From the NCBI GenBank assembly GCA_027625915.1, contig JANTQA010000070.1:9057001-9121000 (forward strand): a DNA stretch of 64,000 bases, given 5' to 3'. The DNA is from Anaeramoeba flamelloides. Its lineage: Eukaryota > Metamonada > Anaeramoebidae. Positions 1 to 57,921 of this stretch are shown here, piece after piece (position 1 is the stretch's first letter; every line of letters starts with the position of its first letter). Position numbers and translations under genes: made by a program. The notes beneath the pieces were generated by a model. It saw only the letters and a list, made by a program, of their open reading frames with translations, ran no database searches and was not told the DNA's origin.

Positions 1-101
1 AGTTTTAGAAAAGGTCTATTAGTGTTCTGTTCAAAATAGTCTTCAATTCCTTTCCACTCACTTTTATTTAAAAAAAAACTTACTCAAAGTTAACCACTTA
101 A

Positions 102-1121
102 GGTTTACAATCCCTGAGATTTGAAAAAAGATTGTCTTATGTAAGGGTGTGTTGACATGTTAATTTGATTGTTAGCTGATCGATCTTGTGCTTGATATGA
201 GTTTTAATAGTGGTTTAAAATAGCAATTTTTGACAATTTATTTTTTTTTTTCCGAAATCCAAATTGAAGAATGTAAGACTATTTGATTGGCTAGGAGGAA
301 AGTTATAAAAAAATGTGGTTTGTGGGTTTTTGATTGAAATTTTTAATTATTTTTGGTTTTATTTGGAGCTTTTAAAAAAATTAATTATTTTTCATTTAGA
401 TAATTAAGAAAAAAGGAAAAACTGTTGAACGAAAAATATTGGACACAGAAAAAGAGTTGGTTACCATTTTTAATTGGTAACATTAGTAAAATTGAAAATC
501 AAATCCTATTGATAACTAGGTGAATTTAATATAAATCCAAGTTTAAATATGTTACAAGTTCATTAATCTGTAGTTTCTGTCGAATACTCATTTGAATGGT
601 TGACAACTAAAGTAGATCATGTTATTTTCACAAAAAAACAAGTTTTAGTAAAGTTTACTATTAATTCTTAAAATGGTAATGTTTAAACTTGCTTTAGATT
701 ATAAGAGATAAGGTTTTGAAAAAGTAGTATTGCATTAATCCTTATTCTAATAAGTAGTTTATTGTTATTGTTTTTAGTTATTTCACAAACGAAAGAAATT
801 AAAAATCATTTTCAGTAAGGTTCAAAATTAAAATTGCAGTCCAACTATTTTTCTCTGTCCAACATTTTTCTCTCAACAGTAAATATTTTCTTCTTCAAAA
901 TAAAAATTAAAATTCATTCTTTATTAATTACCAGTTAATTAATCTTATATTTTTTAGTTTGTATTCTGGAAAAAAAAAAAATAAATTGTCACAAAATGAC
1001 CTTTTTGAACCACTATTAAAACTCATATCAAGCTTATGATCGATCAGCTAAGAATCAAATTAACATGTCAACACACCCTTACATAATATAATCTTTTTTC
1101 AAATTTCAGAGATTTTAAACT
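102..1121. mobile_element. foldback element A, copy 1 (TTAA-flanked MITE)
   Basis: A 1020-bp element with long terminal inverted repeats. The left arm (102 to about 262) reads GGTTTACAATCCC at its tip, and the right arm (about 961-1121) is its diverged reverse complement. TTAA lies directly outside both ends (98-101 and 1122-1125), as in piggyBac-type insertions. A second copy at 53447-54003 has the same arms but a much shorter centre. There is no coding capacity, so it must have been moved by a transposase encoded elsewhere. Confidence 0.8.
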
Positions 1122-2521
1122 TTAAGGGGTTAGTGTATACCAAAGAGAAGTTAAAGATCAAAGTTAGTTGTTATTGGGTGTAAACTCACAACTCTTCAGA
1201 TGCTTTAAATGTCTCGAAAAAATCAATTAGTAAAGTAGTACTATTTGGTTGATAACATCAATTCAAAATCACACATTGTATTATTAGTAAAAAAACCCAA
1301 CAATTTCTACAAAAAAATCTGAATTTCATCACAAATTTAGAGGATGAGTCCTCTATTTCCAGAATTCAAAATTACAAAATAACTTTCTTAAATTTGTGGT
1401 GAAATGTAGATTAGTTGTGAAAAAATTCAATTTTTTGAAATTTGTAATTAATTAACAATATTTTTTTTACATATTCTTTCTGAAATCTTGTCAATATATT
1501 GATTTTACAATTAATTTTATCAAAAGAAAACAAAAATAATCAGTCTTTTAGTTTTTTATGTTGATAGTTATTGAGTTAATAATGAAATTAAAATTTTATA
1601 AAAATAGTCACTTTTATATGTATTAGATTTAATTATTTTATTCTGTCATTCTATTGTTTTGGATTTTTATTTTTAGATTTTGGAAGGATATTAAAAAAAT
1701 TTTTCAAAATATAAATTTTTTTCTTAGTGATCCGTGACTTGCAAAAATAATCAATGAGACTTGTTTAGTATGAGTTTCAAAATAAACATAATTTTTCTTT
1801 TACTTATAAGACCTATACTATTAATTGATCTAATAAACAGATAATAAAATAAAATTGAATATAATATTGGTTTCTGAAAGTTCACTTAGGGAAATTTAAA
1901 TTCTAAAAACAAAAGATTAAATTTGAAAATTATTCTCTAATAATTTTATGAAATTTTTAAAAATAAAAAAAAAATATATTTCATATAAATATAGAAAAAT
2001 ATTATGAAAAAAATTATACTAATTGTAAGTTACAATTTAAATTTTACTTTAAATGTCAAAAAGTTCGGTTTCAAAATTTGATTTCAATTAGAATTACCTC
2101 TAGATAAGTGATTAGATGTTTTATTGGACAAAGAAGAAGAAAAAAACTACTTGAATTTTGAGAAGCAACTAGTTTGAAAAAAATTGAAAATTAAAAAACT
2201 GGTAAATATATTATTTGAATTACCACTTTATAATTGTTAATAAAGTTTATTTACTATATAATCAGCATCGATAAATTTCAAAATATTGGGTTAATTGTAA
2301 TTATTAATTTTGATAACATTGATTTTAAAAAGTCATTGTTCGAAAAAGAACTGTGTTTTTTTTACGAGATGGAAAATATTGAAAAACTGTGGCAATTAAT
2401 TTTTGATTAATTAAACATTGGGATATGTAATTTAACGGATAATAAGAAATAGTTTTGAAAATGCTGTACTCATCTAAATAAAAAACAAATCGAGAAAAAA
2501 AATTTATAATAATTCAAAGTA

Positions 2522-5063: not shown

Positions 5064-5317
5064 CTGTTATTTTTGAATTAATAATGGAAAAATTTTTTTT
5101 CAAGTTCTATAATGGATATTAATTATTATTGCTACAATCAAATCAACCGAGTAAAAATTTTGTCTCAAAAGCTAACTAAGGAAGTTTAAGTTATTGTCTA
5201 AAAATATCATTTCTAAAAGATCTTGTAAAGACCTGTGAAATATCTTAGGCTTTAAAAATAGAAAAATATTTTGGGATGTGAACAAAAAATTTTCATTTTT
5301 TAATTGGAAAATAATAG
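5064..5317 (+). mobile_element. MITE B, copy 1
   Basis: A 254-bp element starting CTGTTATTTT and ending AAAATAATAG, with about 35-40-bp inverted termini and TA on each side. It aligns end to end with copies at 53388-54203 (interrupted) and 57667-57921 (inverted). It contains the intact sequence GGATATTAATTATTA, which is the empty site for the element A insertion found in copy 2. Confidence 0.8.
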
Positions 5318-51736: not shown

Positions 51737-53387
51737 TTGGTGTCCAAGGTTATTAATTGTTTGATAAAAGGGAATTATTTTTTTAAAAATTGTGAATAAA
51801 TAAAGGATCAAAGTGTTGGTTTGGAAAAAAAGTTTTTTATAAAAATGAGTAAAAATTTGTTTGAATTTGTTTTAAACCACATTTTTTACGTTAATTTTCG
51901 GATTTTTCGTTTAAAAAAATACAAGTTTTCGAATAGACGTCCGAAAAACATCTTGTTTTTAAAGTTACTTTTAAGAGAAATTTTAAAATTAAGAAAATTT
52001 TGCACAAATAACTTTTTCCACAATTCGTGTAAATTTTCTTATTTTTCAATCTCAGTTTATTGAAATATAGTTACTGATCAAATATTCTTTTCAGAACAAA
52101 AATGATCAATTCTTAAAAATAGTGAGTGTTTTTCAAACTAAAAATCAGAAAAAAATTACCTTTCTATTTTCATCAGCTGTTTCGTTTGATCAAGACTTGT
52201 CTGAAATTCCACCATTTCTTTTAACGATTTTTTTTTCGGGGATCTTATTCATCATCATTTTTAACACAATAAAAAATTTAATCTTTCAATTTTTCGAAAA
52301 TCTTTTTAGTACATATACATTTAGCTTTAATTTTGAATTGGTTTGATTTTTTAGAATTAATTTTGAATCATTTGTTTGGGTAACAAAGTTAAAATGGATA
52401 ATTTGAAAAAGAGAAAAAATATTCAATAAGAAGGGAGTTGTACTTTTTGAAATAATTATATTTTTTTAAATAAATTAGAGAATAGAAAGACTTTATTGTT
52501 AAGATATTCAACCATAGCATTTTGCTATTTGAGTTTTTTCAGATAGTTTTTCGATCAACATGGTATATGTTGAAATAAACTTTACTAAAATTTATTCTTC
52601 AAATTTCACTTTAGTTTTTAATTACACAGCCTACTAAAATTTATTTCATCAAAAAGACTTTAAATTATGGTAAAAAACCAATTTCCTCAAACCAACACAA
52701 AAAGGAGTCTCAATATTGGATTTTTTTCTGACTTTTAAGTTTTTCTGGTCTTTATTTTCTTAAACCTTCAAAGAAAAATTTTTTCATATTTTTTTACACT
52801 TTCAAATTTTTTTCAGATTACCAAGACTGCTGAAAAGTCGAAACAATTTTTTTTTATCATGAATCATAATATTAGAAATTAATAAAGTCTTTTCAGAACT
52901 TTTTTTGAGGAGTAATTAAATGAAAAAATTTTCAAAAAAAAATCTCAATAAGGGAATTGGTAATGAATTCCAAAGCGGTTTTTGAGAGAGTCACTTGAAT
53001 ATTTTCTGAAACTAGAATATTCTTTATCCAAACATTTGGATGAAAAGAGGTAAAAATTTTAGTCAGGCAAATTTGGTTCGCAGAAGGACAAATCTCAAAG
53101 TTCGGAAAACTTTTGTTTTCTCAAATTGAGCAACAAAGATTAAAAAAATGAACCCAAAAGGGATGAAAACCTGTGGGTTCAAGAATTTGAAATTCGACGT
53201 TACTTCATTTTTGAATAAAAATTGGAAAAAATAATTACTCAATTAACTTTTTTTCATAATGTGTTTCTAATAGTTTTTGAAGAATTAGATTGCAATTTTG
53301 AACTGTATTTATTACAGCTGGTATCTTTTTTTATGATCTTAAATCTGTAAGAAACGAATCCTAAATGAAACTCTGAATTTTGAAATA

Positions 53388-54203
53388 CTGTTATTTTCCA
53401 ATGAATAAATGAAAATTTTTATTTCAATTTCCAAAATGGATATTAAGGTTTACAATCCCTGAAATTTGATAAAGATTATCTTGTCTAGGGTGTAATAAAT
53501 TGTTAATTTGGTTTTTAGCTGATCGATTATGAGCTTTGATATGGCTTTTAATAGTGGTTTAAAATGGCAATTTTTGACAATTTATTTTTTTTTTTCCGAA
53601 ATCCAAATTGGAGAATGTAAGACTAATAAATTGGCTGGAAGGTAAGTTATAAAAAAATGTGGTTTGTGGGTTTTTGATTGAAATTTTTTCATTAGTTTTG
53701 GTTTTATTTGGATCTTTTATGAAAAGATTTTTTTTCATTGTGTTATTGACAGAATAATTAAACCTGAATTTTCTTCTAGAATCTAAAATTCTTAATTTAT
53801 AACTTACCTTCCAGCCAATTTATTAGTCTTACATTCTCCAATTTGGATTTCGGAAAAAAAAAAATAAATTGTCAAAAATTGCCATTTTAAACCACTATTA
53901 AAAGCCATATCAAAGCTCATAATCGATCAGCTAAAAACCAAATTAACAAGTTATTACACCCTAGACAAGATAATCTTTTTTCAAATTTCAGGGATTTTAA
54001 AGCTTAATTATTACAGCTATAATCAATTTAGCAGAGTAAAAATTTTGTCATAGAGTTTTCTAAGGAAATTTAATTTATTGTCTAAAAATAGTATTTCTAA
54101 AAGATGATGTAAAGATCTTTGGATTTTCTTTCAACTTATAAACCAGAAAAATATTTTGGAAACTTGAAATAAAAATTTTCACTTTTTAACTTGAAAAACA
54201 TAG
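53388..54203 (+). mobile_element. MITE B, copy 2, interrupted by element A2
   Basis: CTGTTATTTTCC at the left and GAAAAACATAG|TA at the right, TA on both sides. Subtracting element A2 (557 bp) and one TTAA leaves 255 bp, the same as B3 and one more than B1. Confidence 0.8.
53447..54003. mobile_element. foldback element A, copy 2 (TTAA-flanked)
   Basis: A 557-bp element with near-perfect arms of about 200 bp, tips GGTTTACAATCCC and GGGATTTTAAAGC, flanked by TTAA at 53443-53446 and 54004-54007. It shares its arms with A1 at 102-1121. The empty site is preserved in MITE B1, so the boundaries and TTAA duplication are confirmed inside the window. Confidence 0.88.
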
Positions 54204-55125
54204 TAAAAGAAAAAATTTCAAAATTGAAAAAAAGATAATCCTATGAAATTTTGTCCCTTATAATTTTCAAATACCAGATGTAAATTTAATAAAAAATTCC
54301 AACTATTTCCTTAACTTGTCTTGAATTAATAAAAGAGAAAAAAGGAAAAAGCATTGATATTTTTTCCGAAATTAGTATCCAATAAAACACATCTACCGAA
54401 CTGATAATTTAATAATTTTAGAGATTTAACAAAAGTTGTAATTTTTCCAAAAACTAAAATTATCTTTAGAAATCAATTTTTGCTCATGTTCTGTTGAAAT
54501 TTCATTTCATTTATTATTTTATACCAGTAAAAATTTTCGGTTATACACCTTTGAAAAATCTATTTGTTTGAGAAATAAAAAACTAAAGTTTTTTATTAAT
54601 AAAGAGAATTATATTGAAACCCCAAATAAAAATACTTTAATAAATCGATTATCATTATGTTAACAAGAAAAATATTTTGGACAAATATTATTAAATTCCA
54701 AAATATATACACAAACTACTGAGTTAAATTTCCATATTTTAGATATCCTTTCTTTGCCTTTTTTCAATAATCATTAATATTTTTTCATTTAAATCTTGAG
54801 AAACTTTGTAAATTAGTTAATTGTTAGAATATTCCCTGTTGTAAGCTGCTTAGAAAGTATTGTTATCTGAATTTAATAAAAATAGGTATAGAATGAAAAG
54901 GTTTGTGAATTTATGTTAGAATCCATCATTATTATAGAAAAAATTGAAAATTTGAGAATCAAAATTGTAATTAATGAATATTGTTTTGACCAAGTATAAT
55001 TTGATCAACAAAGCCACAAAAGTTTATTAAAGTTTTTTAGAATTTAAAAAAAAAATTAAAATTATTTTTAAAAAATGTAATTTTCTTTATCATTAACATT
55101 CCAATCCAATGAAAGGAATTAAATA

Positions 55126-57666: not shown

Positions 57667-57921
57667 ATATTATTTTCCAATTAAAAAATACAAATTTTTA
57701 GTTAACATTCCAAAATATTTTTCTAGTTGATAAGTTGAAGAAAATCCAAAGATCTTTACAATATCTGTTGAGAAATGATTTTTTTAGACAAGAATATAAA
57801 CTTCCTTAATTAACTCTAAGACAAAATTTTTACTCTGCTAATTTTATTGTAGCAATAATAAATAATATTCTTTTTGGAAATTAAACATAAAAATTTTCAT
57901 TTATTAATTGGAAAATAACAG
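57667..57921 (-). mobile_element. MITE B, copy 3
   Basis: About 255 bp, inverted relative to B1 and B2, ending AAAATAACAG|TA at the 57921 side; the other tip has decayed. Uninterrupted at the position where A2 entered B2. Confidence 0.75.

Follow-up and report, generated by a model that had tools for sequence, protein, structure and literature searches.

Three-level nest of small transposons in Anaeramoeba flamelloides and concerted arms in many copies of its innermost, palindromic family

MITEs derived from piggyBac elements use TTAA as target, and MITEs of the Tc1/mariner type are recognised by a TA target duplication and short inverted ends. Kolobok elements also use TTAA, and their termini, 5'-RR at one end and YY-3' at the other, are given as a contrast to piggyBac in the part of the source drawn on here (PMC9587614); as excerpted, the account of the Xenopus T2-MITEs, whose target is TTAA, places this non-autonomous family in Kolobok on the same grounds of target and termini (PMC6004289). 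Likeness between the two arms of one element has been described in Galileo, a member of the P superfamily in Drosophila, in which two copies have arms that are more than 99% identical within the copy and approximately 7% different between copies, two others being chimeric, according to the relevant section of that report (PMC2775673). For Tetris, the available excerpt describes three complete elements, in two of which the terminal repeats cluster by element (PMC4079207). The concerted-arm pattern is thus already known from Galileo and Tetris, and nested MITEs as such are ordinary, being mentioned for Blepharisma too in the portion of that paper used (PMC9942856). What is added here is that concerted arms occur in a MITE with a TTAA target, in a non-model eukaryote and in a family of many copies, with one case that reaches into the flank, for which the literature search was too narrow for it to be called unpublished.

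The window, which is the whole stretch of 64,000 nucleotides that was analysed, corresponds to positions 9057001-9121000 of contig C70 in a 254-Mb genome of 76 contigs. Its G+C content is 20-27% in 4-kb steps, and its protein-coding genes include those of a U-box protein and a BTB protein. Three families of small elements, designated A, B and X, are considered, with the following features in the window.

53203-54277, plus strand: X4, the outermost TA-type MITE, net 257 bp, with decayed left end CTTCATTTTTGAATAAAAATTGG and right end CAAATACCAG
53388-54203, plus strand: B2, a TA-flanked MITE with terminal inverted repeats of approximately 50 bp, interrupted by A2, net 255 bp
53386-53387, no strand: TA, left copy of the B2 target-site duplication
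54204-54205, no strand: TA, right copy of the B2 target-site duplication
53447-54003, plus strand: A2, the innermost, palindromic MITE, with left end GGTTTACAATCCCTGAAATTTG and right end (reversed) GCTTTAAAATCCCTGAAATTTG
53443-53446, no strand: TTAA, left copy of the A2 target-site duplication
54004-54007, no strand: TTAA, right copy of the A2 target-site duplication
53462-53653, plus strand: left arm of A2 (192-bp stretch)
53796-53987, minus strand: right arm of A2, 97% complementary to the left arm
5064-5317, plus strand: B1, an uninterrupted B copy of 254 bp with the empty site GGATATTAATTATTA
57668-57921, minus strand: B3, an uninterrupted B copy of 254-255 bp, the last base being decisive
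98-1125, plus strand: A1, the other A copy of the window, outside the nest and split by another small element at approximately 422-879

All three families are short, have terminal inverted repeats and a fixed target duplication, and occur in many copies, which are the features of MITEs; they are called gene-less on the strength of their short length.

The nest proposed by the initial annotation, with A2 in B2 and B2 probably in X4, is real, and X arrived first, B second and A third. Because the three elements sit inside one another, the order of arrival can be read directly, the evidence for it being the target duplications of B and A together with empty-site relatives. When A2 and one TTAA are taken out, B2 aligns on both sides of A2 with B1, B3 and 29 other copies from the genome, with no gap at the junction, and the lengths first given for B1, B2 and B3 hold. 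The TTAA on either side of A2 and the TA on either side of B2 are present at the positions listed. Scored against the B consensus, the left half of B2 reaches 51 (300 block shuffles, at most 21.5) and the right half 151 (300 block shuffles, at most 36.5). The consensus of the B family at the A junction is GAATATTAATTATTA; B1 carries this site uninterrupted, as had been claimed, and the empty site in B restores a single TTAA. TA is found at 28 of 30 left and 28 of 30 right B ends (56/60) in 30 copies.

A genome-wide search, which the initial annotation had called for, reveals that B normally lies without A, so that neither of the two outcomes named there as refuting, a failure of the B2 flanks to align or B copies that always hold A, was obtained. 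Matches to the uninterrupted site number 473 + 482 = 955 (at most three mismatches; reversed control 0), whereas the left junction of this one site, when filled by A, has 21 at the same threshold (reversed control 1), only one of which is a true filled junction, so that the insertion is single at that junction. Compared with the B left end, the window match scores 51, while 17 others range from -5 to 15 and shuffles reach no more than 13. The last three matches fall on L040 and, through both of its ends, on L131, neither of which is B. The match that scores 15 (L150), just over the best shuffle, has no B end by eye. Additionally, among the 40 best A matches, no second nest with both B halves is found besides the window copy. 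Other neighbourhoods of A and B are seen: at L067 (C33:11551249-11552811), A directly adjoins an intact B, as if a target at the edge of the other element had been used; at L042, a decayed relative of B has its right half next to A; and weaker B-like stretches lie close to A at L045, L047 and L065.

The boundaries of the outermost element required one correction. Those of A and B stand, as does the right end of X4 at 54277, whereas the left start had been placed at 53318, where the sequence CTGGTAT proves to be internal to the element: the left end of the X family, TA followed by CTGGTATTTGAATAATAAATGG, finds its aligned counterpart in a decayed end at approximately 53203, which gives X4 a net length much like that of B and leaves the order of arrival unchanged. 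The motif CTGGTATYTTT was tried in the window and set aside; its 10 matches (at most one mismatch) compare with 6.06 expected, a count of 10 is reached by 6 of 100 shuffles, and the number is no evidence by itself. The family was searched with the X4 flanks joined into 142 bases, in which B2 sits at base 70/71, and 40 hits were scored among 113 candidates, 38 of them outside the window. All of these 38 stop at query base 137-142, 25 of them at 142, and seven start at base 60 or before and hence span the insertion point of B2 uninterrupted, so that the location of B2 within X4, previously given only as probable, is upheld. After eight X copies had been read, four were read with the left flank extended; the right end is CAG followed by TA in six of the eight, and in X4 CAG is followed by AT, which indicates that the X4 target duplication is not intact. 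A relative of X without B on contig C51 (L099/L110) shares with X4 the right part and the right flank, the latter at 64 of 80 bases (score 48; 200 shuffles reach no more than 8). On the left, its match to the window begins only at approximately 53280, as befits an old relative and no clean duplicate. Judged by this alignment, it is an empty-site relative for the insertion of B into X.

The A family is large. Its 27-base end, at three mismatches or fewer, is found 1,690 + 1,672 = 3,362 times in the genome (control 0), which at two ends per copy corresponds to at least approximately 1,700 copies. Of 20 copies that were taken from contig C1 in order, 6 have no second recognisable end within 600 bases, so that not all copies are intact. 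Among the 40 best matches to A2, TTAA is present at 35 left and 34 right ends (69/80) and at both ends in 29; the C1 copies were selected by an exact TTAA end at one side, so that only their opposite ends are counted, and 12 of 14 such ends in complete copies have TTAA. Most of the copies listed have GG directly after the left TTAA and CC directly before the right one, and the right end of A2, reversed, is GC. GGG beside the target TTAA is enriched (11/108 A flanks vs 9/2,130 window flanks; for example L041, L064 and L075); three of the 11 belong to one other repeat family, and no target rule is therefore drawn. A second nest in the window, A then another element, is seen in A1, whose interrupter has the ends CTGTTGA... 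and ...TCAACAG with TA at the right. Elsewhere, L066 and L056 are pairs of A copies that stand head to tail with one common TTAA; the neighbour L066b represents a divergent A subfamily with nearly identical arms, and the arms of L056b have diverged.

In light of the TTAA target and the RR...YY termini, A resembles a Kolobok MITE, a likeness of target and termini that it shares with the T2-MITEs, as far as the excerpts of those reports extend (PMC6004289, PMC9587614), along with their non-autonomous character. A differs from them in its ends, GGTTTACAATCCC as opposed to the AGGRR given in the source portion used, and in its long near-perfect palindrome. A search for the THAP domain (PF05485) gave no signal anywhere, and 14 controls were likewise silent, so that this silence says nothing for or against a Kolobok partner. 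With piggyBac MITEs A has in common the TTAA target, and piggyBac-type transposase stretches exist in this genome (68 matched stretches); however, in the 20 loci inspected with approximately 1.5 kb of flank no A ends are found, the best agreement being 18/27, and RR/YY termini are the very contrast to piggyBac drawn in the excerpted source (PMC9587614). At L089, L093 and L097, repeated TTAAGGCACAAA motifs form nested inverted repeats around piggyBac-type stretches. Eight A-type ends with a different continuation are mostly shifted MITE copies by eye. B and X resemble Tc1/mariner MITEs in their TA duplication, their short inverted ends and the lack of a visible gene, and DDE_3 transposase stretches are abundant (150 scored matches); in the three of these loci that were read, the ends of B and X are absent. 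An autonomous partner with matching ends is thus found for none of the three families at the loci read. Near two Tc1/mariner-type matches, in different places, lie near-palindromes of approximately 205 bp (L132 2979-3182 and L133 1181-1381), which perhaps represent another small palindromic family.

The two arms of A were compared over their first 165 bp in 57 copies, namely the 40 best matches to A2, 14 of the 20 C1 copies, the tandem neighbours L056b and L066b, and L131; the C1 copies L115, L122, L123, L125, L126 and L129 were left out for want of a second recognisable end. In 23 of the 57 copies the two own arms are mutual nearest neighbours, whereas 2,000 random re-pairings give a mean of 0.47 and a maximum of 4, and the mean own-arm distance is 0.081, compared with 0.145 for re-paired arms. 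In 14 instances a state private to a copy is present in both of its arms (mean 0.51 and maximum 4 in 300 permutations), and in 84 it is confined to one arm. On an earlier set of 42 copies, 20 pairs were mutual nearest, with 29 private states in both arms and 87 in one; the numbers differ because the added copies have states in common, chiefly L131 with L066b. The 40 best matches are not a random sample, and in the less biased C1 copies, chosen by one exact end, 6 of 14 are mutual nearest (permuted mean 0.41, maximum 4), with 20 private states in both arms (permuted mean 1.85, maximum 12). The B family, used as a control limited to 50-bp ends, shows no such effect (0 of 32 mutual nearest; own-arm distance 0.177 vs 0.176 permuted), while the effect persists in A arms shortened to 50 bp, 7 of 57 being mutual nearest (permuted maximum 3). 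These comparisons show concerted evolution of the first approximately 165 bp of the two arms in many A copies. In 34 of the 57 copies the own arms are not mutual nearest. Additionally, arm identity is 0.75 or lower at 40-80 bp in 10 of the 40 best matches (L045, L054, L058, L063, L064, L066, L067, L069, L071 and L075), and the left arms of several of these ten are nearest to those of L045 or L054, which indicates that an asymmetric A group exists.

The likeness of the arms may descend solely from a symmetric source of recent origin behind each copy, such as one made by fold-back copying at the birth of a lineage, with nothing having happened after insertion. The asymmetric group, which has apparently spread as such, and the 84 one-arm private states are what such an origin leads one to expect; however, the private states common to both arms exceed the permuted numbers, and the arms of the divergent L066b are 98% alike, with seven private states in both and none in one. 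Since L131 belongs to the same subfamily as L066b, the likeness in the latter could also be inherited. L073 has no arm mismatch over the 165 bp compared, and its arm identity extends into the flanking DNA as a perfect inverted run of 16 bp outside the TTAAs, the next longest among 54 copies being 3; in random TTAA pairs of the window, a run of 16 occurs in 17 of 1,131,298, some of which are possibly repeats themselves. Its end variant TTAACG is present four times in the genome, two of these being the two ends of this copy, and the flanking run together with this variant counts against an inherited symmetry. An origin of the likeness from a symmetric source alone is therefore considered unlikely.

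The extension into the flank points to arm-to-arm copying after insertion, and the simplest account of L073 would be that, once the element was in place, copying carried one arm together with its end and 16 bp of flank to the other side. L131 also has identical arms, with 12 bp of inverted, AT-rich flank; it came from a search that favours similar flanks and counts for less, so that L073 is the only strong flank case, and the argument for copying in place draws on L073, a strong case, and on L131, a weaker one. A hint of exchange comes from L066 and L066b, which stand in tandem: by eye, the first copy bears a variant of its neighbour at its right end. The palindromes of L073 and L131 are both centred on TTAA, as they would be if the A transposase preferred hairpin targets and the palindromic flanks predated the insertion. 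Such a preference does not predict that these two copies should be two of the three with identical arms among the 57, and an inverted flank run longer than 3 is seen in L073 only, among 54 copies; targeting of pre-existing hairpins consequently appears quite improbable. In the available part of the Galileo account (PMC2775673) no tract into flanking DNA is met, whereas arm identity in L073 runs into the flank. Within the scope of the same excerpt, Galileo is like A in having arms that are alike within copies and differ between copies, and unlike it in its 7-bp target duplications (TTAA in A), its greater length and its superfamily.

The preferred reading joins the nest and the arm copying. X inserted first, B then at a TA within X, and A at a TTAA within B, all as gene-less elements by cut-and-paste; A would have been moved by a transposase presumably supplied elsewhere; and many A copies would have had one arm overwritten with a copy of the other, probably in place and perhaps through hairpin- or cruciform-templated repair. 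Taken together, nested insertion, movement of A in trans and arm-onto-arm copying form an account that we regard as probably correct. An artefactual nest, through chimeric assembly or chance alignment, deserves almost no credence: AT-rich DNA does yield many weak matches, but the alignment scores lie far over those of shuffles, the TA and TTAA duplications are exact, and the family counts come with zero reversed-pattern controls.

The nest provides clean boundaries for A and B and a corrected one for X, and with them a relative timing of three MITE families in a eukaryote whose DNA is AT-rich. More tentatively, and with some doubt, A may regularly undergo re-copying of its arms, a process in which repeated in-place rewriting through hairpins, sometimes spilling into neighbouring DNA, would keep the whole family foldable while its copies drift apart. 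The concerted arms are worth a genome-wide study: with at least approximately 1,700 dispersed near-palindromes of similar length, A offers a natural series for counting, dating and mapping arm copying, tracts that run out of the element included, and this copying bears on how genomes keep or lose palindromes.
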